A stretch of 64,000 nt of DNA. It comes from Hirundichthys speculiger. Its lineage: Eukaryota > Chordata > Actinopteri > Beloniformes > Exocoetidae. The translations under genes and the position numbers were made by a program. Location: assembly GCA_018398805.1 (NCBI GenBank), contig JAGFBZ010000365.1, forward strand, positions 231,865 to 295,864. Reading direction: 5' to 3'. A model generated the notes under the pieces. It was not told the origin of the DNA, ran no database searches, and was given only the letters and a program-made list of their open reading frames with translations. Positions 6,196-53,500 of this stretch are shown piece by piece; position 1 is the stretch's first letter, and the number at the start of each line of letters is the position of its first letter.

Positions 6196-6960
6196 AAACT
6201 TTTATAACCCTGCTTCCAAGTGTTGCCAACAAAACCTCAGAAAAGTGCATTCGCCACCTATGAAATGTGCAAGAAGCACCACACATTCTCACGTTCATTT
6301 CACTTTGTGTACATCTGAACGTTTGGAAAATTATGTATGGAACTATTTTTGTGCGTACGCAAGGATAGTACATGAGGCTGCTGGTATGAATGGGGACTGG
6401 GTTTGATTGGGGTCATTCAGTCAACATGTCTGGTTAGACCACCACTGCTCCTCCACCCTCACCATCAACACTGGCACACCACAAGGCTGCGTATTGAGTC
6501 CTTTCCTCTACTCCCTCTTCACCCGCGACTGCAGACCTGTTCACGGCTCCAATGCCATCATCAAGTTTGCAGACGACACCACCGTGATTGGCCTCATCAG
6601 GAGCAACGATGAGTCGGCCTACAGGGAGGAGGTGGACCACCTGGCTGCGTGGTGCGAGAACAATGACCTGAAGCTCAACACCTCAAAAACTAAAGAAATC
6701 ATCGTGGAAGGTTCACCAGCGCCTCTTCTTCTTGAGTACTCTGAGGAAGCACCACCTCTCTTCAAACGTGCTAGGGAACTTCTACCGCTGCACCATCGAG
6801 AGCATCCTGACCAACTGGATCACAGTCTGGTGCAGGAACTGCTCCAGCGCTGACCGAAGGCCTTGTAGAGGGTGGTGAAAACCGCCCAGCGCATCGCCAG
6901 AGCTCCACTTCCTGCCATGGACACCATCCACAGGAAGCGTTGTCTCAGGAGAGCAATCAG

Positions 6961-8220: not shown

Positions 8221-8267
8221 CAGGTTCAGGAACAGCTTCTTTCCATCAGCTGTTTCTCTATTGAACT

Positions 8268-12692: not shown

Positions 12693-13129
12693 TGTCATGC
12701 GGCTCCCTGTCCTCTGGCGCCCTCCACTGTCTCCGGTCCCATCCTTCAGCCTAGACTTGCTCGACCCGGCCTCCCCTGCGCAGCTGGGACTGATCATCAA
12801 TCAACACCACACTCTACATAACCTGGATTCCTTCAGCCACTCGGCGCCAGTCCGACAACGCTCCTTGAGTGGTATTAAGCCCACGTCTCGTCTCACTGTG
12901 TCAACCTGTCTGAACCTTCTAATCACTTTTGCTCTCTTCTCCAGTCCTGCCTTCCCCGTCTGCCCGTCCCACGTCCAGCCTGTGTGAGTCTGCCTGCGCA
13001 TCCTGGAACCAGATCTTGGAGAACCAGCCTCGAGCCATCCACAACTGTTCCGGGATTCTCTGTCCAAATAAACCCCTTTGTTCTCAAAGTGAAGTCTAAC
13101 TTGGAGTCTTTCTCACCTGAGCCATGACA
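12693..13129 (+). repeat. Gypsy 5' LTR
   Basis: 437 bp. A CTACATAA TATA-like box at about 12814-12821 lies about 30 bp upstream of GCCAGTCCGA (12846-12855), which is the exact complement of 13132-13141. AATAAA at 13067-13072 is the polyadenylation signal. The terminal ATGACA contributes the gag start codon at 13124. Confidence 0.92.
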
Positions 13130-14191: not shown

Positions 14192-14199
14192 CTCTTGGG

Positions 14200-17100: not shown

Positions 17101-17420
17101 GGCTCTCCCTACCTGCCTCCATGAAGATCCGCCCGGCGTTCCACGTGTCTCTGCTGAAGCCTGTGTCCACCTGTCCGCTGAGCCCTCCGGCCGTTCCCCC
17201 TCCGCCCCCCTGGCTCGTTGATGACCATCCGGTGTACACCGTCCATCGCCTCCTTGACGCCCGTCGCCGGGGGCGGGGCATGCAGGTACCTCGTTGACTG
17301 GGCGAGGTACGGTCCTGAGGAGCGCTCCTGGGTGCCTCGCTCTGCCATCATGGACCCTGGTTTGCGGCGGGCGTTTTATCGCCGTTTCCCGGGGAAGCCT
17401 GGTGGGCCGCCGGTGGCGCC
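14200..17420 (+). pseudogene. pol: Gypsy pol region, interrupted
   Basis: In order: aspartic protease [10 protein letters not shown] (about 14296-14325), reverse transcriptase with [13 protein letters not shown] and catalytic [10 protein letters not shown] (about 15180-15215), RNase H with [14 protein letters not shown] and [10 protein letters not shown] (about 15620-15870), integrase HHCC zinc domain (about 16170-16310) and core with [10 protein letters not shown] and [11 protein letters not shown], and a C-terminal chromodomain with [17 protein letters not shown] (about 17288-17340). Reading frame changes occur near 14325, 15050, between 16900 and 16980, and near 17265-17285, and an in-frame TAG lies at 16502-16504. 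The change near 15050 falls in a G run and that near 17270 in a G-rich run. With LTRs about 98.4% alike, several of these could be assembly indels rather than old mutations. Confidence 0.85.
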
Positions 17421-17440
17421 CGTTGAGGGGGGGGGGGTGC

Positions 17441-17877
17441 TGTCATGCGGCTCCCTGTCCTCTGGCGCCCTCCACTGTCTCCGGTCCCATCCTTCAGCCT
17501 AGACTTGCTCGACCCGGCCTCCCCTGCGCAGCTGGGACTCATAATCTATCAACACCACACTCTACATAACCTGGATTCCTTCAGCCACTCGGCGCCAGTC
17601 CGACAACGCTCCTTGAGTGGTATTAAACCCACGTCTCGTCTTACTGTGCCAACCTGTCTGAACCTTCTAATCACTTTTGCTCTCTTCTCCAGTCCTGCCT
17701 TCCCCGTCTGCCCGTCCCACGTCCAGCCTGTGTGAGTCTGCCTGCGCATCCTGGAACCAGATCTTGGAGAACCAGCCTCGAGCCATCCACAACTGTTCCG
17801 GGATTCTCTGTCCAAATAAACCCCTTTGTTCTCAAAGTGAAGTCTAACTTGGAATCTTTCTCACCTGAGCCATGACA
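17441..17877 (+). repeat. Gypsy 3' LTR
   Basis: Same length (437 bp) and ends as the 5' LTR, with about seven substitutions. The G run immediately upstream (17427-17437) is the polypurine tract that primes plus-strand synthesis. The polyadenylation signal AATAAA is at 17815-17820. Confidence 0.92.
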
Positions 17878-19395
17878 ATTTGACTAGAATAACCGATAAG
17901 AATCTATGTTACTAGTGCAGAGGCATTTGCAATTGTGGATACAGATGTAATGTCCACCATGACATCTTATGATAGTTTTTATATTTATTAAAGCAGATTA
18001 TCAAGGTTAAGCAGCAGCATTGATTGGTTATACAAATTCTAATTCTACATAAAAGGCAAATTAAAGCTGTGGCTTACAAATCGATTCATCTGGTTGGTTC
18101 AAGGACAGGCTGGATGTACGCAAATGGCCACTTTGTGTTGTTCAAGGCCGCTGATGCAGAAGAGAGAGAGAGCGCACAAGGTCAGGCCTGCAGGTACTCT
18201 GATTTGCCCCTCCTCCTTGCTAGCAGTGAGCTAGGGTAAATCCGGAAAAATCCAATTATATTCCTCAAGTGTTGGAAAAATGGTTAATCCGTTCTTGCGT
18301 CTTCTTTGCTCTTGAAGAATAAATCCTTCAGATATTTCCCTCCAATGGTTAGCTCCCCTCGATCCAGCTAGTCCTTCTTCTGAAGACGCCCCACGGAAGA
18401 ACCCCGAATTCTCTTGATACTCCGCTTTTTATGCCATTCTTTTTCTCTCTCTCTCTCTCTCTCTCCCATCCAGCCTCCACCAGCCTGCCCAATGTCCCCT
18501 ATTTAGTCTTCCCCAACTTCTTGATTGGTTCTCTCACATTTGCATAGGCATTCATAATTTCCCCCAAACTCACATGACACTTCTGATTGGTTATCTACAT
18601 ATACAGAGGCGTGCATAATTTTACATAATCCCTCCTTTACATCATGCATAATTCACAGGCCATGTCCCACAATGATTTCATAGGTTTACAGATCAGCAGG
18701 GGCGTTACATAATTTTCCGAGGTACACGATTCCACTCCTTCCCAATCAAGGTTAACCTGTTTATTTGGCCATATAGCTCGCTAAGCTAAAGCTAATCCAT
18801 TTTTAATGATCTATACACTATGATTGGTCCCACAATTTCACTAATTGATGAATTGATGGATTGGTTCGTATTTAATCACAGAATATGCGCTCATTCATTA
18901 TATTTCTGAATTATCTCACCGCAGTCTGCAGTCTTCCACTCTGCCACTTCGCCAAGGCCACTCGGAGCTGCCACCGTCATCGCCATTTGACCCAGACACC
19001 TGCCCCCACTATTGTGTATGGCGAAGGAAACGTATTGTTTACACTGACGGATTCTCTCCTGCTTTCTGTTGTGTCTCCGTAGCTTTGAGCTGGCAGAATT
19101 ATTTTGAAACTTAGCTTTGTTGACATTCCATTGCGGCACACAGTGACACTCGGCAGCTCAGCTCAGCCGCTCACAGTACTGTCTAAATAAATCATACAGA
19201 ATTGACATAGATCTATTCCAACATCAGTAATACATCTTGTTTCTGATCATTGACAAGAATCACACATTTCATTGATTAGAGATTGATTACAAATCACATT
19301 AATTACCATTTTTCTGTCACTCCACTACACTATAACAGAAAAAATCTCATCCCACAGAGCTGGTATAATTCCAACCTCCTCTGGGTCACTTGATA
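17878..19395 (-). repeat. ERV 3' LTR, proximal part
   Basis: In ERV sense the LTR starts TATCAAGTGACC at 19395 (the 5' LTR has TGTCAAG) directly after a polypurine tract. A TATA-like CATAAAAAG on the minus strand lies near 18424-18432, and an AATAAA near 17986-17992. This copy retains 18019-18654 and 18716-18940, both missing from the 5' LTR, so the intact LTR was about 1.9 kb. AAAATCTC at 19341-19348 is the empty target of the giant transposon. A CT microsatellite lies at 18446-18466. Confidence 0.75.
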
Positions 19396-27046: not shown

Positions 27047-28019
27047 TGTTAGATCCCCCAGTTGTGGTTCAGTCCCTGACTAGCAGAGTCTGTCACCGGG
27101 ACCAGCTCTCCATCTCTTCGGGTAAGAAGTTGCGGTCTAGGGGGGTTCACCTTGCTAAGATTTCCTCAACTTATTTAAGCTGGTATCGAGGAGATTCGCC
27201 TAGCTGTCACTGCATACAACTTCCAGCCGTCTATCCTGCTTCCCTCAATAACTGACCTAAGAGGAATAGCCAATTGGCTCAAAGTCCAGCTATCGGTCCC
27301 GTCCTTTAACTGCAGCTCTCCTCTTAAGATCTGGGCTCTTGTTACTAGCTAGGATAAATTTAGTGGCTTGGACAGCAAGCCCCAAGGATATGTGACAATA
27401 TTTGACTAGAATAACTGATAAGAATCTATGTTACTAGTGCAGAGGCATAACCAATGTCGTTGCAATTGTGGATACAGATGTAATGTCCACCACGACGTCT
27501 TATAATAGTTTTTATATTTATTAAAGCAGATTAGCAAGGTTAAGCAGGTTCACAGGCCATGTCCCACAATGATTTCATAGGTTTACAGATCAGCAGGGGC
27601 GTTACATAATTTTGCCACTTCGCCAAGGCCACTCTGAGCTGCCACCCTCATCGCCATTTGACCCAGACACCTGCCCCCACTATTGTGTATGGCGAAGAAA
27701 ACATATTTTTTACACTGACGGACTCTCTCCTGCTCTCTGTTGTGTCTCCATAGCTTTGAGCTGGCAGAATTATTTTGAAACTTAGCTTTGTTGACATTCC
27801 ATTGCGGCACACAGTGACACTCGGCAGCTCAGCTCAGCCGCTCACAGTACTGTCTAAATAAATCATACAGAATTGACATAGATCTATTCCAACATCAGTA
27901 ATACATCTTGTTTCTGATCATTGACAAGAATCACACATTTCATTGATTAGAGATTGATTACAAATCACATTAATTACCATTTTTCTGTCACTCCACTACA
28001 CTATAACAGAAAAAATCTC
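27047..28019 (-). repeat. ERV 5' LTR, main part
   Basis: Matches the 3' LTR segments but lacks the parts equivalent to 18019-18654 and 18716-18940, including the TATA-like box, so this 5' LTR has lost its own promoter. The last 47 bp of the LTR lie at 39945-39991, beyond the giant transposon. The stretch 27720-28019 is almost identical to 19060-19348. Confidence 0.8.
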
Positions 28020-30022
28020 GGTAACGCTTCCTTTTACAGTAATTACCATGTATTTACATGGTAATTACAAGGTAAGTACCATGTAATAAGGAGTAGTTAC
28101 TGTCAAATTGCCATGTAATTACAAGGTAACTATATAGGTAATTACCAAGTCAATTCCAGGCAAATACCAAGTAACTACCTGGTAATAAGTATTAATTACT
28201 GGATAATTTGTAATTATATACCAACTACTTTCTTAATTGCCAAGTACTTACTAGGTAATTGCCAAGTCATTCCTTAAAAAGTACCTGGTAACAGCCAGGT
28301 AATATGAAATAATTACTCAGTATATATAAAGTATTTATATGGTAACTATGTGATTATTTACTAGGCACTCACTAAGTAATTATTATATTATTTCCTAACA
28401 ACCACATATGATAATTAGTAATTACTGGGTGTTTCTTAAAGTAATTTGAAGGTATATGCATGGTAATTAATATGTATTAATATTAATATGTACTTGTAAC
28501 TACCCTTTAATTGTACCTGACAACTACAGAGGAAGGCTATGTAAATACACAGAAAGTACTGTGAAATTTACAAAGAAATTATGACACTACCAATTACTTC
28601 CCTATTGACCACCAGGTGTAATTACAAGACATCATAAGTTTTTACTAGATACTTACCATGTAATTACTAGGAAATGTGAAAGTGAAAAGTGTTTACGCCA
28701 TGTATTTTCCTACCAGTCAACTGGTTTTTACTACTTACCTGGTAACTTCTTAGTATTTACCCAGTAACTACAACATTTACCTGGTAATTACCGTTGAACT
28801 GTACTGCAAAAGGAAGTGAGGCCTGTTTTCATGCTATTATCTGGTAATTACTCATTCGTTACCCAGGAACTACAGAAATACCTACATAGAAAGTACCTAG
28901 TTACTAAAGTGGATTTGTACTGTAAAAGGAAGTGAGGCCTGTTTCCATGTTATTAACTGGTAATTACTCATTTGTTACCCAGTAAATAGAAAAATATCTA
29001 CCTGGAAAGTACCAAGTTATTAAAATGGATTTGTACTGTAAAAGGAAGTGAGGTCTGTTTCCATTTTATTACCTGGGAATTACTCAGTATTTAGCCCGTA
29101 ACTAGGAAACTATCACATTACCCAAGACACTTGGACTGGAAATGCTGCAAAACCGACCAGTGTCTATGATACAGTGTCAGAGTACACTGATACAGTTACA
29201 GTGTCTGATTCTCCCCCTGAACAGCACACTGTATCTGTCAGGAGATAAGAGTTCCCATCAAAAACCCCCATCACCAGCCATCAAACTACATTAAGATGAA
29301 TGCATTACTTTTACACTTCCTCACTCAAAACACCTCGCTGTGACACATATGCAAAAACAAGTGAGCTGCCAAAGATAAACATTTTAATCAAATTCTTATA
29401 AAACAATTTTTTCAAAAACAGTGCAAATTTTTAACAGTCAGGCACTTAAAAAAAAAAAAATCAGGATAGGCTTCTTTTTCAATAAATAAATAAAAATAAA
29501 ATAAAAACAACAGTGATAAATAATGACTATAAATAATAATTACTAAGTAAACAGTCCCAGTCTTGGGAATTCACATCATGTGTCTGGCCCCAAGCACTGG
29601 GTAGGCATTCCACTTTTTGGTCTCTGAAAAGTGTAACATGTAAAATCCCTCCTGTAAAGCAACGGCTCCCGAAAGGTTAAACTTTATGATAAAAAGAACA
29701 GGTATTTAGCATTTGTCCGGGACACAAAACTAGTCAAAACAACAACGTATTAACTCTAACTGTGTGTGTGCGCGTGTGTGTGAATTCACATCATCATGTG
29801 TTTCCTGCAGACTGGTCTGGCCCCAAGCACTCGGTGGGCGTTTTTCAGAAACCAAAAGGTGATCTGTCTGTCAGGGCTTTAAGACAGTGCAGACACTGGT
29901 TGATTCTTCACTTTCTGGTTTCTGAAAACACCCACCTAGCACAGGCACCCACATGGGCCAGACCAATCTGCCGAAGACACATGATAATGTGATATCACAT
30001 GGCTGTGCTTCACCAGGCCCCC
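28020..30022. repeat. Left terminal inverted repeat of the giant transposon
   Basis: About 2.0 kb pairs with 37977-39936. The outer ~1.1 kb is a patchwork of degenerate palindromic units such as GGTAATTACC, TTACCTGGTAA and GTAATTAC. The terminal word CTTCCTTTTACAGTA recurs inside in the opposite orientation (TACTGTAAAAGGAAG at about 28914 and 29034, TACTGCAAAAGGAAG near 28802). The inner part carries GTGT-repeat-flanked copies of a CTGGCCCCAAGCACT block and ends where the CCDC106-like gene stops. Confidence 0.88.
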
Positions 30023-30345
30023 TCATTTCTGAAATTTGTATTTGATGTTGAGCAGCTCATTGGCCTTCTTCATCTTATCCACTTTCACCTTTAGGGTGGG
30101 GTTTGCATCCAAAAATGCCTTGCATACTTTGGCAAAGCTGGCCAAACTCTGCTTTTCAGCAATTATGGGCAGCTCTCCAAAATCCCCACCGTCTCCGGCA
30201 ATGAGGACATCTGCGATAACCGCAGTTCCTGCGATGGTGTTGCGGTCCAAGTCAAAGGCCCTACAGGTTTCTGGGATGCTCCTGGTCCTCTTACACATCC
30301 TCACCAACTTCTTATAGCGGTGGACCACATCCTCTGGGCTACTGA
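30023..30345 (-). CDS. ccdc106-like: CCDC106-like, last coding exon
   Basis: Acceptor TTGTAG precedes 30345. It encodes the whole conserved C-terminal domain from SSPEDVVHRYKK to the stop at 30023-30025. Phase (two bases completing a codon begun in the previous exon) fits. Confidence 0.85.
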
Positions 30346-33300
30346 CTACAAGACAGATCAAAGAAAAAAAAAAAAAGAAAGGGAAAAACACACAATCATA
30401 ATTACAAATATAATGTACAATCCGAGTATACACGATGATCAGTATTTAAACTATTCTTTTTCACTTCAGGGTTTAATTGATAGTCTATACCAGGGGTGGG
30501 CAATTAATTTTTACAAGGGGCCACATGAAAAACCTGAGTTGTGTCAGAGGGCCACATCAACGATAACTTGAACTTAATCCTGCTCAACTTTCTTCCATTG
30601 TAAAATACATTAATATTATATATTCTAAATAGCTGGTACTGGTAATTAGAAGAATACAATTATTCTGTAGATATTTATATTAGGCTTGTGGCGTATAGGT
30701 CGAGTAAAAAAACAAAAATAATTAATAAATCCAATTTATTCTTAACTTGTTAAATTCCTCAAACTGAATTACAACACATCTATAGAAACACATCAATTAA
30801 ATGAATAATGTTTTAATGATTTCCACCTCATTTTACCAATTCCTTGTTGGGTTTTGCAGTTTTGCTTGCAATGCATCAGCCTCTATTGCGCGCTCTTTAT
30901 CAGACAGATTTCTGTATTTTTCCTCATGCTTGGTCGTGTAGTGCGGATTCAAATTATAATCTTTAAACAGTGATCTGTGTAGCACAAATCACGGCTTCAC
31001 CTTTTAATTTCTGTAAAGAAATACTTAGCGGTCCATGTCTTGTTGAAAGCAAGTCATTCCTTGTCAACTTTTCTTTTCTTAGCGTCAGCACACATTTTAA
31101 CGGCAGCATCACTTAGCGCTGTTTACCTTCATGCACGTACGCTACACGGAAGTACTGCGCTTTTCAAAATAAAAGCACCACAGTTGTATTGCACGCACGA
31201 CGTAGATTTTTTTTTTTATTAAGTTGTAATCAAATGTAATTTATGATTGGCCTCATGCGGGCCGGACAGGGACGAACAAAGGGCCGGATGTGGCCCGCGG
31301 GCCGTGTTTTGCCCAGGTCTGCTCTATAGATAACAGTTTCATAATAGGGCCAGCCTGACTATGCTAAATGTTGCTGTTAAGAGATTGTGTGTGGGTGGAA
31401 GGGAGAGTACTCTTAGCAGAGATGCTCCTACTAAGATGAAAATCCTCTATAGGCCTCGCTAAGGTGAACGGAGTCTGAAAGCTCCCCACTGTAGTCGATA
31501 AAAAAGGGGTGCATTTACCAAATTTTGTGGTCACTTAATGGTGGGGTAGGTGTTGTTTGAAAAAACGGTTCCAGCAATCCAACTCAAGTGAGATTTTGAA
31601 AACATACACTCCCTCCCTCCTCCCAAAGGCTCCGCCTCCTCCTCTTCAGCTCACCCCTCGAAACCACACCTTCACACGATTCACGACTACATGAACCACA
31701 GGGGAGGGAGGGAGGGGTGGGTGGGAGTGCATTGATATTTAATGGACGCATTATGCAGCCAATCAAAATAGTGATGATCACTATTTTGATTGGTCAGAGA
31801 TTTTCTCTGATTATACCCTCTAGACTGGACCAAAACGTTTTGGTTTTTTTTGCAAACATTTTATTTCAGTGGGTGCAATGGGAATGTGAAAAGGTTTTCA
31901 GGCAATATTGTAAAAAGTGTTGCAAAAAACAACACCTACCCCACCTTTATTAAATCAGTGCATTTTCATGCTGCAGTGTGATGTAAAATTTAAAAATTCA
32001 AGGTCCCCCCCTTAACTTTGACAGTGCACAAATGGACTGGTTAGGGCTCATTTGGTTCCATCTGTACATCAGAGTTTTGTGTCAAGAGTTATAAGAGAGG
32101 TATACTCTTAGGGGTCGATTTAGAACGCTTAAGGTAAACCCAGAGTCCCTGAAATCCTCTTTGATAACCACTGATGTAAGCGAAAGCACTGTTTGTGTGT
32201 GCATTGTTACAGAAACAATATGAAAATCTTTATTTTCCCAGATACCTCGCTTTCCAAACGAAGCCTTCTTTGACTTTTTCTTTGGGGAGTCCTCATCTGA
32301 TGATGATGACGACAATGGGGGCTTCCTTCTTCTCTTTTTGGCAGCCTTCTTTGTTTCAAAGGAGGGCTCAGAAGAGTCGGAGGACTCACCAAGGTCATGG
32401 ATCCTATTCTGTGAACCTTAAAGTCAGCAAATATATAAAGTGAACCAAAGAGCAAAAAAATAAAAATAAGAATGCAGTGATAGCAATTTTATTTCATGAA
32501 TAAATATGAGAAAAATTAAAGTAATTCCATAAATTAGAAAGTAAAAGGCCTATATACAAGCTCACAACACAGCGTAAAGCGACACGTTGTGAGTTTGTAG
32601 GTCTGCTGTTTTCACTGTTTTTGTGTCCCAGGCAAATGTAAAATACCTCTTTTTTTGTCACAGGCTTAACAGTTTGGGAACCATTGCTTTACATCATGGG
32701 TTTTCCACTGGTGAGGCATTGCAGGTGGTCCCTGGCCATGCATTCATTGAAAAGACTTTTCCTTTTTAAATTTTCCTTTTAGTTCAATTTGCTACTCTCT
32801 TTTTCTTGTTTGCAGGTGATAGAATGATAAAACTGCTCTTTTCTGGTAATAAAATGTTTTGACAACAGACAATATATTGTTGGATGGGTCTATGGTGGAC
32901 CCACCTGACAATAGGGTTGGTCCCCAGGTTGTTCCTAGTCAGAATGGTGGTCCCTGGGTCAAAATCAGCTGAAAACCCCTGCTTTAAATGGTAGTTTGAG
33001 CCTGACATGTAAGTTTTGGGAGGAACAGTCTAGTTACCTTTTGAACCGGCCTCAGAGGAAAGAGACTTCTCCTTTAGGAGATCCCGCTCCTGTTTTAGTA
33101 GTCTGCTCTCTTCCTTAAGGAGACGAATCTCCTCTTTGAGGAGCCAGTTCTCTCCCTTTAGCTGGTTCAAGTCCGACTTGAATTTTTCCATGGTTCCACA
33201 AGAACCGCCTCGAGCCTCTTCAACTGAAAAAGATGCGCAAAAATGTATTAAATACTTAGGATTGTATTTGTTTCGATGTGTTAACAGTGATAGGCTATTC

Positions 33301-34752
33301 TATTTCAGTTAGACAAAGCTTTGTAACTAAGCCTTGCCAAGCCAGAAGGCCCATAGGGCAGGAGCCTATTTCCTGTTTCTTTAGCATGAAGCAGCTTTGT
33401 GTACATTACAAGTCCACCCCCTGGACATGATGCTAGTATGTCGCAGGGACTGAATCTATATCCCACCTGGGAATAAAATTCTTACCTCCGATATCTGACT
33501 CCACCTCCTCCAAGTTGTGTTCGACTGGCAAAGTCTTCCTCTTGTTTTTCTCTCTTTTTTTCCCTCTTTGGGTTTGTATTTGAGACATGACTCTGTTGGG
33601 TAAAATAACCAAATTAAAATAATTTAACAAAGCTGTATCTGTTATACAGTATGATATATAAATCAACTCTGAGCTGATTTATGGCTCATAAAGTGGTCTG
33701 GGACCCCTAGGGGGCCGTCACAGTTACTACAGGGGGGCCACCAAATATTTGTCATTTTTGTTTGATCTACATTAACCACATGAATATTTTCACTCAAATG
33801 CATACTGTTGACGCATTTTGAGCTAGTAGATCAGCTATTTCTTTTGACATTTTTTAATTTGTATCCTTAATTATTTTCTTTTTACTATTTTTGAATTGGA
33901 ATCGGAAAATTTACATTTATTAATTTTAAAATTAATTCTCGTGCTAACATTATTAACTTCTATTCAAATACAATAAACAAAAAATATATAATAGGCATTA
34001 ATATAGACTGAAGTAATAAAAGAGGGTCATGTTTACATGTTTTGAACTGTAACCGCAGAAATAAATAAATCGGGTGAAATAATGTTTAACATTTCACTTA
34101 AACCTCCCAAGCGCTTTTGAGAACCCCCTGGGGGTCCGAATCACAGGTTGAGAACCACTTGATTGATTGATTGTTTGTTTGATTGATTAAAAAGTTTATT
34201 GAGAAAAAATGTACAGTTTCATCACAGTACAGACCCACTGGTATAAGGTCAACTAAAAGGAGATTACATAAGCCTGAGCTTGTTTCAATTGACATTTTTT
34301 TAAAACTCATAACATTGAGAAACAGAGAAAGAACGCAATACTATGCAGAAAGTAGCATTCAAATGCCACAAATACGCTCTTGACCGATCGGCCAAAGAGT
34401 AAGCTCGTGATAGCAATTTTCCCCATTAAGTTTTGTTGTGTGGTTCCCGAGATATTCTGCAAAATACCGACGATGTCGCGTGGGGGCGCCGGCACACGCG
34501 CGGAGTTAACGGGGTTGTAAAACACATTAAATTTTAAAAACCCTACACACGAATAAATTAACCTCGCATTAACAAGCCTTCAGCAATCTAGAACAGTCGG
34601 CCCAGTGCTCAGATCTAGCCTAGCCTACCAACTTTTCCCAATGTTGTTAGCTTTAGCCATTTTCACGTTAGCAATCATGGCATGCAAACCACCGTCAGAT
34701 TATATTAACTGTTAATGTTACAATTATTTCTCAGGTAAATGTGTCACTTACC
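30023..34752 (-). CDS. ccdc106-like: CCDC106-like protein carried by the giant transposon
   Basis: Four coding exons with GT-AG borders and matching phases: 33588-33486 (ATG at 33588), 33223-33038, 32416-32246 and 30345-30023, giving a 260-aa protein. An upstream noncoding exon probably ends at 34752 (donor GTAAGT). Order: basic N terminus (KKREKNKRK), a coiled coil with four exact leucine heptads (WLLKEEI, RLLKEES, RLLKQER, DLLKEKS, about residues 60-90), an acidic/serine run and basic patches (SSSSSDEDSPKKKSKK), then a conserved C-terminal domain with VVHRYKKL, DLDRNTIAGTAVIADVLIA and a LNIKYKFQK end. This is the layout and C-terminal signature of vertebrate CCDC106 (280 aa in human), a nuclear protein reported to bind p53. 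The role in the transposon is unknown; a nuclear DNA- or transposase-binding partner is my inference. It runs divergently from the transposase and ends at the terminal repeat. Confidence 0.85.
30491..31321. mobile_element. Non-autonomous hAT-like element in a CCDC106-like intron
   Basis: Ends CAGGGGTGGGCAA and TTGCCCAGGTCTG (inverted CAGnnnTGGGCAA), flanked by GTCTATAC and CTCTATAG (six of eight bases shared), as for a hAT 8-bp duplication. Sub-terminal GGGCCACAT and GGCCCGCGGGCC sequences are typical of this common family. No transposase frame. Confidence 0.65.
31539..31949. mobile_element. TTAA-flanked MITE, copy 1
   Basis: About 410 bp with inverted GGTGGGGTAGGTGTT ends, alike to 42358-42769. 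The left side has TTAA at 31535-31538; the right end is slightly altered. It contains a CTCCGCCTCCTCCTC-rich stretch and a CAAAATAGTGATGATCACTATTTTG palindrome (shown in part; 31766-31790). Confidence 0.65.
32246..32416 (-). CDS. ccdc106-like: CCDC106-like, third coding exon (acidic/basic linker)
   Basis: 171 bp between acceptor CTTTAAG and donor GTATCT. It encodes the Ser/Glu and Lys-rich linker. An alternative acceptor eight bases downstream (CACAG before 32408) would break the phase with the preceding exon, so 32416 is preferred. Confidence 0.75.
33038..33223 (-). CDS. ccdc106-like: CCDC106-like, second coding exon (leucine heptads)
   Basis: 186 bp between acceptor TTTTTCAG and donor GTAACT. 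It encodes the coiled coil with four leucine-leucine heptads, predicted to dimerise. Confidence 0.82.
33486..33588 (-). CDS. ccdc106-like: CCDC106-like, first coding exon
   Basis: Start ATG at 33588-33586 lies four bases after an ACAG acceptor and opens MSQIQTQRGKKREKNKRK. The donor GTAAGA follows 33486. No other in-frame ATG upstream joins this frame through the 34752 donor. Confidence 0.75.
34160..34310 (+). repeat. GATT-tailed short repeat, copy 1
   Basis: GATTGATTGATT followed by a GGAGATTACATAAGCCTGAG block. A second direct copy lies at 35035-35155. The pair flanks the 5' exon and divergent promoter. Probably a retroposon tail. Confidence 0.6.
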
Positions 34753-35188
34753 AAGGTGTTTTTCTTCCGTGGTTGGGAAAGTGGAGCACACACCGGGAGA
34801 ATGCGGGTTTCTGTGACGACTCGCGTAGGAGTGGAGGACAAATAGAAAGAAGCACACAGCTTGTCACCGGTGGTTCTGTGTTTCGCCTTCACGTTGGTGA
34901 CGTTGCATTCGCCTGTGTACACATCATTACGCTCTGGAGACGTTCAATAGCCCGCGAAGATAGGAGCGCCAGCAAAAAAGCGCCACGAGCAGGTCAAGCT
35001 TCTTACTGTGTAGGTATGGTGTAGGAGGCACTGATTTATTGATTGATTGATAGGTTTATTATAAGTTTGCATAGGGAAAAGGTCAAGTAAGAAGGAGATT
35101 ACACTATTAAGCCTGATCTTATTTGTTTCAATTGAGATCCTTTTTTTTTAACTAAGAAGAAGGCAATTTCTTTAAAAAGAAGTCAACC
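34753..35188. promoter_or_regulatory. Divergent promoter region of the giant transposon
   Basis: About 430 bp between the probable 5' exon of the CCDC106-like gene (minus) and the transposase start codon (plus). It is locally CpG-rich at 34780-35000 against an AT-rich background, with no long frame crossing it, so both genes probably share it. A GATT-tailed repeat copy occupies 35035-35155. No TATA box is convincing. Confidence 0.5.
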
Positions 35189-35352
35189 ATGACTTTAATA
35201 AGAAAACTCCTGCAAAATACAGCACAAGGCGGAAAATCTCTGATACGGTGGCTTCAGAGGGAGAGGCTGTTGGCCAGTGAAAGAAGATGCCCAGTTTGCC
35301 ACAGGCAAATGAAGTTCAAAAAAACAAACACAACCAAAGATGGATATCGGTG
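35189..35352 (+). CDS. Transposase exon 1
   Basis: Encodes the N terminus and the first zinc-ribbon knuckle CPVC. The donor TG|GTAAGT follows 35352, leaving a two-base phase. Confidence 0.82.
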
Positions 35353-35399
35353 GTAAGTGATGAAGCATTACCATAATCTTATTATTATCATCTTTATTG

Positions 35400-35432
<33 letters not shown>

Positions 35433-35442
35433 TATATAGATA

Positions 35443-35499
<57 letters not shown>

Positions 35500-37976
35500 T
35501 ATATAGATATAGATATATAGATAGATATATATGTATATATATAGATATATAGATAGATATATAGATATTAAGCACTCTATATTTCAATGTGAACGTTTAT
35601 GTAGATGTAAGGGGTAAATGTTTTCCTCCTAACAAGGGACATGACGATGTTTACAATCTCATATACTCTTGAGAATCTATGTTACTACTTAAAATTATAT
35701 TTACAGGTGTGGTATGTTATGTTACAGGAGCTGCAGAAGGTCATCACATGGGGGCAGGGCAATAACAAGGTCCATCAGAGATGGATCCATTTTCTCTGGA
35801 TCACACATCCCATTACAATCATGGATGCAGATTATGCACAGGTTGGATGTTTCTTTCCCTCACTTCAATTCAAACGGTCTCTCATTCTCTCATAAGCTGT
35901 GTAATTGTATTTTGTTACACAATAATTGATTATTTTGTGCGTTTCATTTTAGCTTTGACCATTCCAATCAGGTAGACCTAATACAGTACATGCAAATACC
36001 ACATGTAATCAGTGTCTCTTAACATGAATAGCCAAATGCATACTGACATATTACATCGAGCAGTGGTCCCCAAACCTTGTATCTCAAAATCAAAAGCCAA
36101 GTTATATGTTTGCCCAGATTGCAAATTTATGAACATAGCAGATTTACAAGCTCTGAATGTGTTCGGATCGCAATGTGAACTTGTAGATCAGCTATTTTTA
36201 CTACTTCTATTGGTTATCTTATTTATGGAGTCTTAGTTTTTATTTCATGTATTAAGGAAGTTAATGAGAAATCAGTGCTTGTTTATTTTTTAAAATCATG
36301 AAAACTTACATATGCTTTTTTGAAGAATGTTTTTGAAAAGGATTTGAAATAATAATAATTAGGGGACCCATGTATTTATTTGTGACCCACAAATGGGTTC
36401 TGACCCAATGTTTTGTAACCATTGACATAGAGTACACATTCTAAAGAAATTCAAGAAATCATGCACGTTCATCCATCCCAACATTTACAATATGCACAAT
36501 GGATATTGTAGCAACAATCTATTTATATCAGGACCCCTCCCTGTCTACAAAACTATCCTATCCCTGTAGCTAATATGTTGATAGCAGTTGTCCTCTGTTT
36601 TTTCGCTCAGCTTGGCACAAGGATTGAGGCAAAGACATGTGGACATGATAGAAGATGGTGTGTGTGGAAGCCCCAAGTCTCTCACCAGGGTGACAACCCT
36701 ACTCCGTGAAATATGCTGTAAAGCTGTGAGGCGGATGGAGAGAAACCGGAAGATGAGGATCGGAGGGAGAACAGCGTTCATCGCAATAGACGAGAGCAAG
36801 TTTCGACACAAAAGAAAAGTAAGGTTTTATACGCTACTAAAACAGGGACAATAGGTTTTAAACACAGGCATCAAAGGGTTGGATTGGGGGGTGCCTCCTG
36901 GGTTACTGGTCCAGGCGCATTCTATATTGGCTGTGATGCCCAGGCGGCATCACTGGTTCGATTCCCGAGCCAGACATTTGCCACACTTCTCCCCCCATCT
37001 CTCTCCCCCTTTCCTGTCAGACTACTATCCTATCCAATAAAAGCAAAAATGGCCAAAAAAAAAAATCTTAAAAAGAAAAAAAAAAAACAAAAAACAAAAC
37101 AAACAAAAAATCTACAACCTATGGTTAATCTCCATGGTGATGTAACTGCCATAATGTTATGAAAATATAAATGGATCCTTTAAAGTGCTTCAATTTAGCT
37201 GCTAAAATGTTGTGTGAAGAACAGTGAGTCTGTTCTTCATTGTCTTCAGACAAAAGTCTTGCAGGTACTGGGCATGTGAGATATAGAAATCAGGGTCATT
37301 ATTGGCTTTTACCCATGACTACATTCATATACCACCTCTTGATCCATGTCTCAAACCATGCCATGTGGGGGCAGTTAATTTGAATAGAAGACCCTCAAAA
37401 TTGTCCCCAAATAAATGTATTTTATTTATGTATTTAAATTTAATTGGAACATTCAGAAATGGTGCATTTTAGGTGGACAGCCGCCATTAAGCATGACATT
37501 TTGTTTATTTTCAGTATGGACGTGGACGACGTGGCAACACCTGGCGACGGAGGTCCTGGGTATTCGGGATGATGGAGGTCAAGGGGTCCCGTAGACGCCC
37601 AGTGCTGAAACTGGTAGAAAACCGATCAAGGAGAATCTTGCACCCAATAATTCTCAAATACGTTAGACCTGGAAGCCAAATAATCAGTGATTGTTGGCGT
37701 GCATACGACAGGTTGGCCAGGGATGGATATATTCACTACCAGGTGAATCATCAGCGGTACTTTGTTCACCCTGGGAACGGTGCTCATACACAACACATTG
37801 AGCGTGCATGGAGGAGCTGTAAGGAGAACATATACCGCTACAGGGGGAACCTATCCGAAAGTGCTCTCAAGATGAACTTGAAGTTCATTGAATGGAACCA
37901 GTGGCTGGGGAAAGAGCACAGGGAGGGCATCTTAGGCCGCTTGTTTAAAGACATAAGAGCATGTCACAAAGTGTAA
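35189..37976 (+). CDS. IS1595/Merlin-type DDE transposase
   Basis: Four exons with consistent phases: 35189-35352, 35707-35841, 36611-36818 and 37515-37976, 322 aa. Exon 1 starts at ATG in AACCATGA context and encodes RCPVCHRQM followed by DGYRW, continued in exon 2 by cysteines and [14 protein letters not shown], the zinc-ribbon-like N terminus of IS1595/ISXO2 transposases. The catalytic domain has AIDESKF (first Asp, end of exon 3), YGRGRRG, then [10 protein letters not shown] (second Asp) and [16 protein letters not shown] (Glu), the DDE spacing of this family. It cuts and joins element ends to 8-bp staggered targets. No stop or frameshift is visible, so it may be active. The intron positions make it clearly eukaryotic, related to bacterial IS1016/IS1595. 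Confidence 0.88.
35400..35572. repeat. (TA)n/(GATA)n microsatellite in transposase intron 1
   Basis: Long TA run with interspersed TAGATA units. The open frames across it are simple-repeat artefacts. Confidence 0.9.
35707..35841 (+). CDS. Transposase exon 2
   Basis: Two in-frame acceptors exist: TTTACAG before 35707 and GTTACAG before 35728. The first adds seven residues including two more cysteines. The donor is AG|GTTGGA after 35841. Encodes [14 protein letters not shown], conserved in the family. Confidence 0.75.
36611..36818 (+). CDS. Transposase exon 3
   Basis: Acceptor TCGCTCAG before 36611, donor GTAAGG after 36818. Encodes the helix-rich linker and the first catalytic aspartate in AIDESKF. 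Confidence 0.85.
36860..37100 (+). mobile_element. tRNA-derived SINE in transposase intron 3
   Basis: Contains a B-box-like GGTTCGATTCC after a tRNA-like 5' region, a unique middle (CTTCTCCCCCCATCTCTCTC) and an A-rich tail to about 37100. It is a polymerase III retroposon, not a functional tRNA. Confidence 0.65.
37515..37976 (+). CDS. Transposase exon 4
   Basis: Acceptor TTTTCAG before 37515. Encodes the rest of the catalytic domain (second Asp and Glu) and stops at 37974-37976, four bases from the start of terminal-repeat similarity. Confidence 0.86.
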   Translation, partial: YGRGRRGNTWRRRSWVFGMMEVKGSRRRPVLKLVENRSRRILHPIILKYVRPGSQIISDCWRAYDRLARDGYIHYQVNHQRYFVHPGNGAHTQHIERAWRSCKENIYRYRGNLSESALKMNLKFIEWNQWLGKEHREGILGRLFKDIRACHKV

Positions 37977-39936
37977 GCCGAAATGAGGGGGCCTGGTGAA
38001 GCACCAGCCATGTGATATCACATTATCATGTGTCTGGCCCATGTGGGTGCTTGCAGTAGGTGGGTATTTTCACTCCACCAAAAAGTGGAATGCCTACCCA
38101 GTGCTTGGGGCCAGACTGGTCTGCAGAAAACACATGATTATGTGAATTCCCAAGACTGGGACTGTTTACTTAGTAATTATTATTTGTAGTTATTATTTAT
38201 CACTGTTGTTTTTATTTATTGAAAAAGAAGCCTATCCTGATTTTTTTTTTTTAAGTGCCTGACTGTTAAAAATTTGCACTGTTTTTGAAATTGTTTTATA
38301 AGAATTTGATTAAAATGTTTATCTTTGGCAGCTCACTTGTTTTTGCTTATGTGTCACAGCGAGGTGTTTTGAGTGAGGAAGTGTAAAAGTAATGCATTCA
38401 TCTTAATGTAGTTTGATGGCTGGTGATGGGGGTTTTTGATGGGAACTCTTAATTCCTGACAGATACAGTGTGCTGTTCAGGGGGAGAATCAGACACTGTA
38501 ACTGTATCAGTGTACTCTGACACTGTATCATAGACACTGGTCGGTTTTGCAGCATTTCCAGTCCAAGTGTCTTGGGTAATGTGATAGTTTCCTAGTTACG
38601 GGCTAAATACTGAGTAATTCCCAGGTAATAAAATGGAAACAGACCTCACTTCCTTTTACAGTACAAATCCATTTTAATAACTTGGTACTTTCCAGGTAGA
38701 TATTTTTCTATTTACTGGGTAACAAATGAGTAATTACCAGTTAATAACATGAAAACAGGCCTCACTTCCTTTTACAGTACAAATCCATTTTAACAACTTG
38801 GTACTTTCCAGGTAGATATTTTTCTATTTACTGGGTAACAAATGAGTAATTACCAGTTAATAACATGGAAACAGACCTCACTTCCTTTTACAGTACAAAT
38901 CCATTTTAATAACTTGGTACTTTCCAGGTAGATATTTTTCTATTTACTGGGTAACAAATGAGTAATTACCAGTTAATAACATGGAAACAGGCCTCACTTC
39001 CTTTTACAGTACAAATCCACTTTAGTAACTAGGTACTTTCTATGTAGGTATTTCTGTAGTTCCTGGGTAACGAATGAGTAATTACCAGATAATAGCATGA
39101 AAACAGGCCTCACTTCCTTTTGCAGTACAGTTCAACGGTAATTACCAGGTAAATGTTGTAGTTACTGGGTAAATACTAAGAAGTTACCAGGTAAGTAGTA
39201 AAAACCAGTTGACTGGTAGGAAAATACATGGCGTAAACACTTTTCACTTTCACATTTCCTAGTAATTACATGGTAAGTATCTAGTAAAAACTTATGATGT
39301 CTTGTAATTACACCTGGTGGTCAATAGGGAAGTAATTGGTAGTGTCATAATTTCTTTGTAAATTTCACAGTACTTTCTGTGTATTTACATAGCCTTCCTC
39401 TGTAGTTGTCAGGTACAATTAAAGGGTAGTTACAAGTACATATTAATATTAATACATATTAATTACCATGCATATACCTTCAAATTACTTTAAGAAACAC
39501 CCAGTAATTACTAATTATCATATGTGGTTGTTAGGAAATAATATAATAATTACTTAGTGAGTGCCTAGTAAATAATCACATAGTTACCATATAAATACTT
39601 TATATATACTGAGTAATTATTTCATATTACCTGGCTGTTACCAGGTACTTTTTAAGGAATGACTTGGCAATTACCTAGTAAGTACTTGGCAATTAAGAAA
39701 GTAGTTGGTATATAATTACAAATTATCCAGTAATTAATACTTATTACCAGGTAGTTACTTGGTATTTGCCTGGAATTGACTTGGTAATTACTTTAAAAGT
39801 ACAAGGTAATTACCTATATAGTTACCTTGTAATTACATGGCAATTTGACAGTAACTACTCCTTATTACATGGTACTTACCTTGTAATTACCATGTAAATA
39901 CATGGTAATTACAGTACTGTAAAAGGAAGCGTTACC
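37977..39936. repeat. Right terminal inverted repeat of the giant transposon
   Basis: About 1.96 kb, inverse of 28020-30022 by eye over long blocks. Contains four tandem copies of a ~116-bp unit starting CACTTCCTTTTACAGTACAA (about 38648-39120), against fewer on the left, so the arms differ by unit number. The inner ~200 bp lacks an insertion found in the left arm. Confidence 0.88.
38648..39125. repeat. ~116-bp tandem repeats within the right arm
   Basis: Units begin near 38648, 38761, 38877 and 38993, with a diverged one near 39111. Each carries TTCCTTTTACAGTAC, the same word found at the extreme transposon end but in reverse orientation, so these may be sub-terminal protein-binding sites. 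Confidence 0.8.
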
Positions 39937-39944
39937 AAAATCTC

Positions 39945-42353: not shown

Positions 42354-42357
42354 TTAA

Positions 42358-42769
42358 AGGTGGGGTAGGTGTTCTTTGAAAAAATGGTTCCAGCAATCCA
42401 AGTCAAGTGAGATTTTGAAAATATACGCTCCCTCCCTCCTCCCAAAGGCTCCGCCTCCTCCTCTTCAGCTCACCCCTCGAAACCATGCCTTCACATGATT
42501 CATGACTACATGAACCGCAGGGAGGGAGGGAGGGAGGGGTGGGTGGGAGTGCATTGATATTTGATGGACGTATTAGGCAGCCAATGAAAGTAATGATGAT
42601 CACTATTTTGATTGGTCAGAGTTTTTCTCTGATTAGACCCTCTAGACTGGACCAAAACGTTTAGTTTTTTTTTTGCAAACATTTTATTTCAGTGGGTGCA
42701 ATGGGAATGTGAAAAGGTTTTCAGGCAACATTGTAAAAAGTGCTGAAAAAAAGAACACCTACCCCACCT
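42358..42769. mobile_element. TTAA-flanked MITE, copy 2
   Basis: 412 bp with inverted ends AGGTGGGGTAGGTGTTCTTT, exactly flanked by TTAA (42354-42357 and 42770-42773). The TTAA target suggests mobilisation by a piggyBac- or Kolobok-type transposase. The same family lies at 31539-31949. Confidence 0.8.
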
Positions 42770-42773
42770 TTAA

Positions 42774-47589: not shown

Positions 47590-50500
47590 CTGAAACGACA
47601 TAATTAGATCAGCTTTCATTTTATTCATGCGATGCTGAATGAAGACATGTGAGACTTGATGCGACTCACTACAGAGCATCATCCCTGCTGCCATAGTTGT
47701 CCAAACCAAACGCTGCTGTGACTCCAACAATTATGAGAGGGACTCCATCACTGACAAGATAAAACCTGCCAACAAAAGAGTTAACAATTAGCAACACACA
47801 CTGCTATGAGGATTTCTCTGTAAGTCATTTGAACACATGCAAATGATTTTGACAATTTGTGGTTTAAGATTCAGTGGCAGTCTGGAAAAACAGTTTTCAT
47901 CATTCAAACCATTTTGAAAACCCATTATGGGTCAGTGTATGAACTGGCAAACCATACTGGTGAAAACTGAAAAAGCTTTTTAAGGGATTGCAGTGAAATC
48001 TAAATGTTTCTATGATGCACTGATGAACAACTGTGTTGACCCTCTGGCTTACACTATAGGACGACAGATTGCTGAGGTTTATTTGTGTTTCCGAGAGGAT
48101 GAGCAAGCTTTTATGAACTTCTTCTTTTAGCTTTTCTAAAAGCCTGGTCACCACTGTGGATCACCTTTTTCCATCTGGTCCCATATTCTACATCCTCTTT
48201 CACCACATCCAGAAATCTCTGGTCTTTTTCTCCTGCCAAGCAACTACTTTTCCAGCATCCCTCCCATTTATGTGTTGAAACTAAATCTAGCCTCTCATAC
48301 TTTGGGCCCTATCTTGCACCTCCCAATACCCAATACCCAATACCCATTACCTGCAAATCTCAGATTTAGGAGCCTCTGCCAACCGAAATGCAATCTTCCA
48401 CCTCCCAAAACCTGCTACCCATTTTGCCGACTCCCTTAAGCACATTGTGGGCGCGACAATGGGCGTGTCTCTTGCGCTTTCCACGAATTCGGTATCTTGC
48501 GGTACCTGTATCTCGCAGATTTTGGGTATTGGGTAATGGGTGGTCCGACCACCCATTACCCAATACCCAAAATCTGCGATACCAGTACCGCAAGATATCG
48601 AGTTTGTGGAAAGCGCAACTGGCATGTCGGCGCGTAAAAGAGCGCGTCCAAATCCTGTCATTGCGCGTCCACCCAGTCTCATGTGGACTGCCCAACTGGC
48701 TCTACCTCTCGATTATGCATCACTGTATTACTTTCATACGTTATTATTCTCTTAAGGGCAGGTGATTTCTGTACAGCTGTGACATGATCTCATTCAGATG
48801 TTTGCTGTGGAGGAAACGAGGAGATCACAGAACTCTGTTGTGGAGTTTCTTGTACTGCGCTCTTATCCCTCTGACCCTCTCCTTGTGCACTGGAGCACCC
48901 GAGATGCGCTCACTGGTAGAAGGTAGATGTCATCATACGTGTTCCTCTGGCTCAATGCTCATCCAATGATCCGTTCTGCAGTATTTTAAAAAGCACCGCT
49001 TCCAGCGGCTATGCGTCTTGGCGCAGCTGTGCGTCTTTGCGCAGGGGATATGTTCAAGATAACTCAAAAAGTTATGGATGGATTTTGATGACATTTTCAG
49101 GAGTTGTCAGAAATGTGAAAAGGAAGAACTGATTTTATTTTGGGTGTGATCCGGAAGAAATCCTGGATTCTGGATCACTTTCAAATTTTCGATAACATTG
49201 CGCTGTTTAGTTGTTTCTTGAACCCTAAAGCAACCACAATGGAGACAGGAAGGGAGTTCTGGAATTTTAAGAGTTTAATTCTCTCAGATGTAAAAAAGGA
49301 GGATTCGAGGGTTGGCAGCCAAACCAACAATCCAGGGGACGACGAAGGCAAGGAGGTGGCACTGCGAATGGCTGGATCAGGCGTTTCTATGGGAAGATCT
49401 GGAGACGAGTCTGGTTGAATGATGACTGAATAGGTACAGGTGTGCAGTGCCACACCTGGGCTGCTCGTCGGATGGGAAGGTGAAACAGGTGGATCTGAGT
49501 ATATGTAGAGGATTGAAGGTGGCGCAGTGGGTTGTGCGCAGGAGCCCCAGCGGTGGAAGGTTGCAGTTCACAACCCGGCTTGAGACTGTAACACGCGCTC
49601 AATGGGGCTGGAAATTTTGTTTCTCAACATCTCCGTTAATTATTGCCCACAGCTCATTAAATTTCACTCAGGTATTGACACTAAAAACCTCTATAAAATT
49701 TCAGAGGCTGATCTGGATCTGATCCAGAAGGCGGATTTTATCGCAATCTGTAAATCGCTGTATGGGAGAACTGTTGTGCTTGGCGGAGGTCTGCGCTCTC
49801 TGAGTGCTTTTCTAGTTAAGAAATGCTTTCCTGGAAGTTCACTGGCTCTATTTTTTTCTGAACAGTTTGTTGGAACTTCTTAGAGTACAAAAGAAATGAT
49901 TAAATCATTTGCTCCACATTAGTTAGAGCTAGTTATGTATATATATCAGTGCAGAGGAGGAGGAGGAAAAAAGAGGAGGAAGCTCTACAGCAGAGTCCCA
50001 GACGAGCTGCCCATGAGAGCTGCTCCGATTTGGGTGAAAAGACGCTCCATAGCAGTTTGCAGGTAGCGCAACCTGCTCTTAAAGGCAATGGCTACTGACA
50101 CACTGATTGGTTAAACAGGTGGAACGCCCCAACCACTCCCATGCATAATGTGTGCATAATATAGTGGTTTTTGCAGGTAAGATCGTGGGTTTTGGGAGGT
50201 GGAAGATTGCGTTCTTTGTGGGGGAACGCCCCTCCCAATACCTGATATCCCTTAATAGCAGGTTTTGGAGGTTTGGCGCAAGATAGGGCCCTTTATCTCC
50301 AAAACATCTGATTCTGTGGGTTCTTCTGATGTGCTACTTCTTAATCCATCCTTGTCACTATCAAATAAACTCTTACCATTTTCATCTCTACCACCTCTAT
50401 CTCTGCTTCCTGTCTCTGGGTCGGTGCTGTTGTATCCAAGCAACAGAAAAGAGCAGAGGGGTGTACTACGAAGCGAGATTAGAGGGTTAGCGAGGTATGT

Positions 50501-53500
50501 TGAGTCTAAAACCAGGATTTCCAGTACCACGAAGGTGGCTCTTTTTCAACCTGGCTAGATCACCATGGTAACTTACTCTGCAAGCTTAACCTGGTCCGGA
50601 GCAGGTTATGTGCAGAGTTTAGGCTCAAATCGGCTATAAAAAGCACTGCCCTTTTACTTTCACCCAATCCCGTTGACCTGAGCGCCAGGATTGTGCAATG
50701 GAGGGAGAGTATTCAGAGGCCGGACTGATCCACTGGCTTCCCATGACCATATTCTCTATTAACGCTAGAGATTTCCAGCTGAGGGAATACGTTACATTTG
50801 TAATCTGCTAGAGCCATATATTGGCAGCGCCACCAAACGCAGCCGTGCGCTCACAGTAGCGCAAACGGTGTGCGTTTCTTTGCCACGGGAACCTAGATGC
50901 ATTCAGTTGGTGATGCAGAAAATCTGAGCCAGAATACTGGAATAAAGGTTGTACTTGCTCTTACTGAACTGCTGAATATGTTTGTAGTATTCCCTGGCCA
51001 TCTGCCCACGCTTCAAATAAAAGAAGCGTTTTACTAAATCGCAGGTAACATAAATTAATAGTCCATTATATTGATAATGAGTGTGACATGGAATTTCAAG
51101 TGAAATGTTTTAATATAATTCATTCATAAGATTCCCCAGGGTGATAGGGTACCTATTAAAGTGGCCGGTGAGTGTGTATAACAGATAATATTAAATCTTA
51201 AATTAATTTCACATAGATTTAGCAAAAAACTAAAGTGATTTTCATTTATCATTCACCTACATAATGTTTAAATCTGCTGCATTAAGTTTAAAGTTTAAGC
51301 GCTCTAAAAGAGGGAGGGAGATTAATTAAGGTGGTGAAATAAATATAGTGGTGAAATAAATATAATTTACGAATTTACACGATCTGCAATTTTTTGCCAG
51401 CACTCCTCTCTGGCTTTATTCGCACCTACAGTGTTGCTTTTGGCCGTAAAGATTTCTTTGAAATCCTCATAGCCCTGCATTATTAAAACCTGCTCCTCCT
51501 GACTGAAATATACGGACCGCCATCTATCTATTTGATCCGGAATAGACGTCAAATGATGCGTCAAATGCCCCCTTTTATGTGAACGCGCACAGAGCAGGAA
51601 GCAGAAAGCCGCGGTTAACAAAGATAGTTGATAACCACCGTTGTGGTACCAGTTATCTCTGATCGCGAGTTTCAGGTTTGTTAAGCCAGCTCACCCAAAG
51701 AAAGCCTGGCTGTGTGGAACTTGCTTCGTAGTACACCCCTCAGAACAATATTAAGTTCAAAGTCTTCCCAGAACGTGCCAGCAAATGTACCAGTTTTTAA
51801 AAATTGTTATATACAAAAAGAAAAAACAAAACAACCAAGAACTATATCTCAGACCCCACAGGTCAGCATCTTCTGTCTTAAAAAAAACTAAACAAAACAA
51901 AAAAAAAAAAGAAAAAACCACACACAACATGGAAATATGATTGAGGTTAACAAAAAAGTATCTTAAGGAACCACAACACTTCTGAGACCAAAGTGGAGCT
52001 GTTTGGTGAAAACCAAACAGGTTTTCAACAAAAACATCTCATCTCCACCGTCACAGTTGCTTCCAGAGGTAAATGATAGCTATTCCAACTGCCCAGACTC
52101 TTCTGTTCAACCTTTTAACTACCAACGAAGCACAGCTGATAGTTGTTTTGCGGTTATCAGGTAGTCCCTACTGACTGGCAAAGATATTACATGATATATT
52201 TTGCAGCAGACCCTAACCTCCTTTATGCTCTCTTTGGTAGCCTTCTTCACCTTGCTGGCCAGGTATTTAATTTTAACTAGTAGCACCTTTGCCCCATCTT
52301 ACACCCAATGGATGAAAGACTCTGTAGTCCATCATTGACTCAATAGATATTACACCTAAGAAGTCAGTGAGAAACCTTATATGTAACTCCCTTTGGTCAA
52401 AATTATAGCTCTTAGGGTTTATTTCAACTTCTCCTTTCTTCCTTTTAACTTTTAGTATATTGTTTGACACCTATATTGATTGAAAACATCAGCATTGTTT
52501 CATACCTCTACTGTGTGAATGAAAATAATTTATTTCGTTTTTGACTTTACTATATGCATATGATTTTATGATTTACTCATATTTCTTGTTCTTAGAGAGG
52601 ATATTATCTCATATACTCTTTCCTGCTCTGTTGAAACAGTTTGTTCACACCAGTCTCAGGGTCATTTGTCATTTATCTGCTTTCTTGCCATCCAGAACTG
52701 TATGAACCCTTTGTATGAAATGGATATTAAAATCTATTAAAATCTAATTATTGCCAATAATAAGATTTATAAAAATAATCCAAAGCTGAATTAAATATCT
52801 AAACAAAAAATTCTGTGGCGGTACTTAAAGAGAGCTTTGTCTAAGTGAATGTTCAAAAAGCCTCAATGAACTGAAGCAACGTTGGTTAGAAGAATGGACC
52901 AAAGTTCCTCCAAAACCATGTAGGACTGTTGAAGTCATCACGTTATCGCTGCTACGGGGGGGGGGGGGGGGGGGGTCTCCAAGCTGTTGAACCATGGAGG
53001 GCTTTACTGTTGCCTACAATATTTTTTTTTCCTTTTCGGTTTCATCTTGTTAAATAAATAATAGCACAGTGAAAAACGTTAAAATGTTGTACAATGTATA
53101 TATTCAGTTCAACTATATTTGTATAACATCTATTACAATCCAGCACTCAAAGAAAAAATAATGAACAAATCAAATTGATTGAATGAAATCAGCACCGTAG
53201 GGGAGGTCTGCTCCTCGTTCACGAGCCTGAAACAGCAACGCTTCTGAACAGGTTAATGTAGCTCGGTGTTTCAGTCACCATTAGTTTACCTCAGGATAGT
53301 GGGCTGTGTGCAGGTCTGGGCCAGCCCTTTCCTGTCCTGGGTCTGGAGCGGGTCTTTGGACACGTCTGTACAGATGTTTCGGGCAGTAAAAGCCAGCCAC
53401 AGCATGGTGGACAGGGAAGCATAATGGAGCACCATCCCCACCTGGCACAGGTAGAGAGGCACACACAGGTTGTTACTGGAGGTGGTTTTAGAAATGAGCT

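Follow-up and report, generated by a model that had tools for sequence, protein, structure and literature searches.

Merlin transposons are recognised by a 5'-GG start of their inverted repeats together with the transposase domain, by which new families are filed in the part of PMC8101967 considered here. A target-site duplication of 8 or 9 bp is a further mark of the superfamily. The part of PMC8101967 just cited gives inverted repeats of 24–462 bp, notes internal tandem repeats in some Merlins, and mentions for a Symbiodinium Merlin one overlapping antisense frame that its authors considered chance. Fish Harbinger elements carry two genes, and in the relevant section of PMC9179366 their Myb-like proteins are less conserved than their transposases. 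In this study we analysed a window of 64,000 nucleotides from Hirundichthys speculiger (assembly GCA_018398805.1, contig JAGFBZ010000365.1, positions 231,865 to 295,864, forward strand), which contains an element of 11,917 bp. By domain, catalytic triad, ends and duplication, i.e. every criterion examined, its sequence identifies it as a two-gene variant of Merlin; what is new is a conserved partner gene and arms built as GGTAATTACC arrays. The DNA itself shows the ends and arms, the 8-bp duplication, an open reading frame for each gene and the recurrence of the gene pair. We consider it likely that this Merlin, with a divergent pair of genes for a DDE transposase and a CCDC106-like protein, employs the latter to aid the transposase on the long arms.

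The boundaries follow from the ends, the target-site duplication, an empty site in a sister long terminal repeat (LTR) and other copies with the same limits:

28020..39936, no strand assigned: whole element, 11,917 bp
28012..28019, no strand assigned: left target-site duplication AAAATCTC, abutting the left end
39937..39944, no strand assigned: right target-site duplication AAAATCTC, abutting the right end
19341..19348, no strand assigned: empty target site in the sister LTR, with AAAATCTC present once

The element runs from GG to CC, with GGTAACGCTTCC at 28020 and GGAAGCGTTACC ending at 39936, and both ends thus open with the 5'-GG of Merlin. A search for the 22-bp end with up to 3 mismatches gave exactly two places in the window, inverted relative to each other, and none in 100 shuffles. 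In the sister LTR both element flanks are joined at the single AAAATCTC, the right flank following directly after it. Inverted ends, an 8-bp duplication and an empty target in the sister LTR had all been described in an initial annotation of this DNA and are confirmed here.

Gene 1, the transposase gene, has a reading frame that is open across four exons:

35189..35352, plus strand: exon 1, with the CPVC of a possible zinc ribbon
35728..35841, plus strand: exon 2, acceptor moved from 35707 to 35728
36611..36818, plus strand: exon 3, with the first catalytic D (AIDESKF)
37515..37976, plus strand: exon 4, with the second D (ISDCW) and the E (HIERAW); stop codon at 37974–37976

The initial annotation had given four exons and 322 aa. 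The four exons stand; because the seven residues opening exon 2 of that model are missing from relatives, and pieces of P0012 (full frame on a 1.6-kb contig) match from acceptor 35728 onward, we place this acceptor 21 nt downstream, which yields a protein of 315 aa. The proposed IS1595-type DDE transposase agrees with the Pfam match to DDE_Tnp_IS1595 (PF12762; expectation value (E) 4.3e-20, 72.7 bits versus a cut-off of 27) and with the triad D160/D228/E265, which is invariant in all 21 aligned sequences, the window included. The closest relatives found are 72–84% identical and have the same domain; those with a named source are all from teleosts. The predicted structure of one relative, P0010 (predicted local distance difference test score (pLDDT) 82.8), matches retroviral integrases and DDE transposases, among them ISCth4 (E 5.2e-4) and Mos1 (E 1.9e-3).

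The Merlin/IS1595 relationship claimed initially is thus borne out by PF12762, the triad, the GG ends and the duplication. Of the two ranks left open there, a new Merlin subgroup is plausible. A new superfamily with Merlin as only distant kin could be argued from the arm length and the second gene, which exceed the Merlin descriptions in the cited part of PMC8101967, but the transposase relationships already contradict it: relatives at 72–84% identity carry the same domain, and triad, ends and duplication are all those of Merlin. We rejected this rank as extremely improbable.

The second intact multi-exon gene (gene 2), likewise noticed in the initial annotation and left unnamed there, is indeed open, with four coding exons and 260 aa:

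34740..34835, minus strand: likely 5' exon, matched by the N-terminal part of Epinephelus coioides P0001 (76%)
33486..33588, minus strand: coding exon 1, ATG at 33588
33038..33223, minus strand: coding exon 2, coiled coil, judged by eye from heptad-like leucines
32246..32416, minus strand: coding exon 3, rich in serine, acidic residues and lysine
30023..30345, minus strand: coding exon 4, CCDC106 core domain
34750..35010, no strand assigned: candidate bidirectional promoter, GC 0.52, CpG observed/expected 1.02

Residues 81–256 of its protein match positions 55–220 of the 220 in the Pfam profile CCDC106 (PF15794; E 3.4e-22, 79.8 bits versus a curated cut-off of 30.2). Judged by this match, gene 2 encodes a CCDC106-family protein, which is the most distinctive feature of the element. 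All four coding exons are matched by the annotated E. lanceolatus protein P0002; identity reaches 90% to E. coioides and 86% to the E. lanceolatus protein, and the Epinephelus relatives are annotated as 'CCDC106-like'. Among the listed relatives of gene 2-type proteins no tetrapod CCDC106 is named. The modelled domain is all helical (pLDDT 82.9), and its top structural matches are the DNA-binding proteins VirB and SopB, too weak to serve as proof. The CpG ratio of the spacer 34750–35010 is the highest among six stretches measured and would suit a promoter common to both genes.

Compared with described Merlins, the element shares the DDE_Tnp_IS1595 domain, the DDE triad, the 5'-GG ends, the 8-bp duplication and tandem repeats. 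Its arms of ~1.6–2.0 kb, however, contrast with the 24–462 bp given, and its recurrent CCDC106 partner has no counterpart in the Merlin descriptions of that part of PMC8101967. The bacterial IS1595 family and IS1016 resemble it in transposase domain and 8-bp duplication, but have a single transposase gene according to the same source, where the element has a second one. Like fish Harbinger it combines a conserved transposase gene with a second, faster-evolving gene for a partner protein, the two being long associated; there the partner is Myb/SANT-like, here it is CCDC106 (PMC9179366, in the section cited). A Pfam search of the element's proteins returned no Myb match at E ≤ 1. The transposase of Harbinger is of another type. 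Gene 2 resembles CCDC106 in that a coiled coil precedes the conserved C-terminal domain of its protein, and differs from it by sitting inside a mobile element.

The pair of genes recurs in the 1.04-Gb assembly (3002 contigs) from which the window comes. At least 76 CCDC106 matches were merged to 65 loci and at least 29 transposase exon-4 matches to 23 loci; the transposase search used a DNA query, to which distant transposases are invisible. Among the matches listed, a CCDC106 locus lies no more than 20 kb from 16 of the 23 transposase loci, whereas 0.06 would be expected under uniform placing, and all 16 paired CCDC106 loci lie upstream of the transposase on the opposite strand, i.e. head-to-head. 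The loosest pair (C2036) is 17 kb apart. Since two of the 16 use one CCDC106 locus, and since C245 and C2646 represent one insertion (see below), we count 14 independent pairs including the window. The pair on C271 (L041 42500–46000, L042 53500–56000) falls in another Merlin clade, nearest P0028; piece by piece, identity is 56–74% to P0028 and 47–62% to P0010. The C271 element is no shorter than 12 kb, and tandem units of ~102 bp make up its arms, which measure 1 kb or more. In D. labrax the contigs that bear the transposase P0010 and the CCDC106-like P0059 have the same length, 21,118,976, and a second CCDC106-like protein, P0061, is on a different one. Because the same back-to-back pair recurs across the genome, we propose that the second protein probably serves the element as an integral transposition helper. 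On the CCDC106 side, 15 of the 65 loci are near a matching transposase among the matches listed; of the other 50, some may pair with distant Merlins and some may be host genes.

Exon 4 of the transposase is found at 99–100% in at least five other places of the genome. Two of these copies have both ends: C2219 (12,290 bp, duplication CAAAATTG) and C245 (14,827 bp, duplication AAATGTTC). C880 and C1705 each show one clean end before the contig breaks off, and C2646 was counted as the same insertion as C245 because their flanks agree at 99.5% over 3.4 kb. This gives five independent insertions, the window included and four elsewhere. The initial annotation had named a lack of other copies with the same boundaries and gene pair as an argument against itself; such copies are present. 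In all three two-ended copies, the window included, the 8-bp duplications match, with a different sequence at each place. In the five long copies, again including the window, the splice-site dinucleotides are AG or GT as expected at 60 of 60 positions (12 per copy). Because two-ended copies of the family span 11.9–14.8 kb and the C271 element reaches at least 12 kb, great length may well be typical of such elements. In the decayed relatives C963 and C373 the arms are ~2.8 kb and ~4.3 kb apart, perhaps as products of deletion. C750, C963 and C2507 each have the terminal sequence GGTAACGCTTCC at a single end, C600 has a version of it with 3 mismatches in 21 bp, and in C373 it was not found.

The arms are the second unusual feature:

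28020..30029, plus strand: left inverted arm; near-identity to the right arm over the outer ~1.6 kb, patchy homology further in, as far as the stop codon of gene 2
37980..39936, minus strand: right inverted arm, its inner edge shortly after the gene 1 stop codon

The initially reported length of ~2 kb holds, but near-identity is limited to the outer ~1.6 kb. A single BLAST piece covers 1122 bp at 96.6% (11 mismatches, 2 gap openings), and 1627 of 1700 columns are identical over the whole 2-kb arms. By direct count the outer 760 aligned columns contain no difference, and up to 29160 the arms differ by gaps only, most of which come from two 116-bp units and 27 bp that the right arm has in addition; the left arm has three such tandem units. 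Further inward the homology is patchy and resumes up to 30029 and 37980, and GAAATGAGGGGGCCTGGTGAAGCAC is located at or just behind the stop codons of both genes; the arms therefore end where both genes end. Along the arms the palindrome GGTAATTACC is repeated as an array in 11-bp phase. In the left arm, 15 sites with at most 2 mismatches fall within the outer 758 bp (shuffles 0.9, maximum 4) and form eight pairs spaced 11, 22 or 33 bp (shuffles 0.01), compared with one site in the 7.9-kb interior. As the motif was chosen by eye before counting, the exact figures are flattering, and the contrast between arm and interior depends less on this choice. Phased pairs also occur in the relatives C373 (7), C2507 (11) and C750 (12), with one each in C963 and C600.

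A spacing of about one helical turn between palindromes would match a dimer held by a coiled coil, and we therefore propose the partner as the binder of the arms. Transcription of both genes would run outwards from the CpG-rich spacer and stop in the arms. The partner, with its putative coiled coil, basic middle and helical C-terminal domain, may dimerise, and the dimer could bind the GGTAATTACC palindromes, as putative sites, in their 11-bp phase along the arms. By analogy with the Harbinger Myb-like proteins, it might gather transposase and ends or carry the transposase into the nucleus, and the transposase would cut at the GG ends and insert by an 8-bp staggered cut-and-paste reaction.

Several observations weigh against such a helper. 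Both genes are open only in the window copy: C2219 has an open gene 2 (0 differences in 260 codons) and frame-breaking differences in its transposase, and C245, C2646 and C880 have frame-breaking differences in both genes. Seven transposase loci are without a partner, namely C1705 (at a contig end), C2245, C2530, C2623, C373, C600 and C750; a local search recovered a 25-residue CCDC106 piece in the arrangement of the pair at C373 and found none at C600 and C750. In the other clade, the C271 arms contain nine GGTAATTACC sites and no phased pair. Between the window and C245, C2646 and C880, partner exons differ by 2.4–2.7% and partner introns by 2.7–3.1%, compared with 0.3–0.8% and 2.4–3.0% for the transposase. 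Gene 2 thus appears almost unconstrained between close copies, which fits a passenger and a fast-evolving helper alike. The transposase exons are alike at synonymous sites too, with a synonymous divergence (dS) of 0.005 to C245 and C2646 and 0.025 to C880; the ratio of non-synonymous to synonymous divergence (dN/dS), from few changes, is 0.55, 0.55 and 0.16, respectively. The similarity of these exons can be read as selection on the protein or as exchange between copies. The window's own arms show no difference from each other, 25–41 differences to the arms of C245, C2646, C1705 and C880, and 0–1 to C2219. C245's own arms have 14 differences between them and at least 21 to C1705 and C880, and those of C880 have 26, more than the 13 to C1705. 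These comparisons hint at occasional homogenisation.

The partner might be a host gene that a Merlin captured early on and that has since been propagated without contributing to transposition: its exons evolve at nearly the rate of its introns, CCDC106 also exists as a human gene, and some relatives of the element show no partner. We consider this unlikely, because a useless gene should be lost or rearranged across such divergence, whereas the head-to-head order is kept where transposase pieces are 47–79% identical in protein to those of the window or P0010, and the frame of gene 2 is intact in two copies here and in the annotated Epinephelus proteins. Alternatively, membership of the PF15794 family and the reported reduction of p53 stability by human CCDC106 (PMC6423756, in the portion cited) could mean that the partner acts on the host, e.g. 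by damping the p53 response to transposition breaks. This is very unlikely in our view, since no sequence evidence here bears on p53 binding and the p53 studies listed were on cancer cells.

The element and its surroundings contain further repeats:

30491..31322, no strand assigned: nested insertion of 0.83 kb, part of the 11.9-kb total
31535..31949, no strand assigned: nested repeat, 93% identical to 42354–42772 outside the element

Besides the window copy, C2219 is the one long copy that has the first, which from its ends we take to be hAT-like; the remaining three, C245, C2646 and C880, lack it. The second is 415 bp long, has inverted ends (GGTGGGGTAGGTGTT...AACACCTACCCCACC) and is found once within the element and once outside. 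Elsewhere in the window, an LTR retrotransposon at 12693–17877 (437-bp LTRs at 98.4%, 5-bp duplication ATTTG) lies inside the sister LTR, which is older, ~90-bp units form a tandem array at 6942–8222, and 659–1977 and 50454–51746 are a direct duplication of 1.3 kb at 92%.

In conclusion, we favour a two-gene Merlin whose CCDC106-like protein aids its transposase. One may speculate further, at quite long odds, that CCDC106-family proteins are at root transposon accessory proteins, that a deep lineage of teleost Merlins encodes them as arm binders which recognise palindromes spaced by roughly one helical turn, and that the vertebrate p53 regulator CCDC106 is the domesticated descendant of such a partner. 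If it is true that a fish Merlin lineage depends on a CCDC106-type partner, this would be a new accessory-protein system beside the Harbinger Myb-like protein, some fish 'CCDC106-like' annotations may be mobile DNA, and it would become possible to test where CCDC106, which is reported to regulate p53, comes from.
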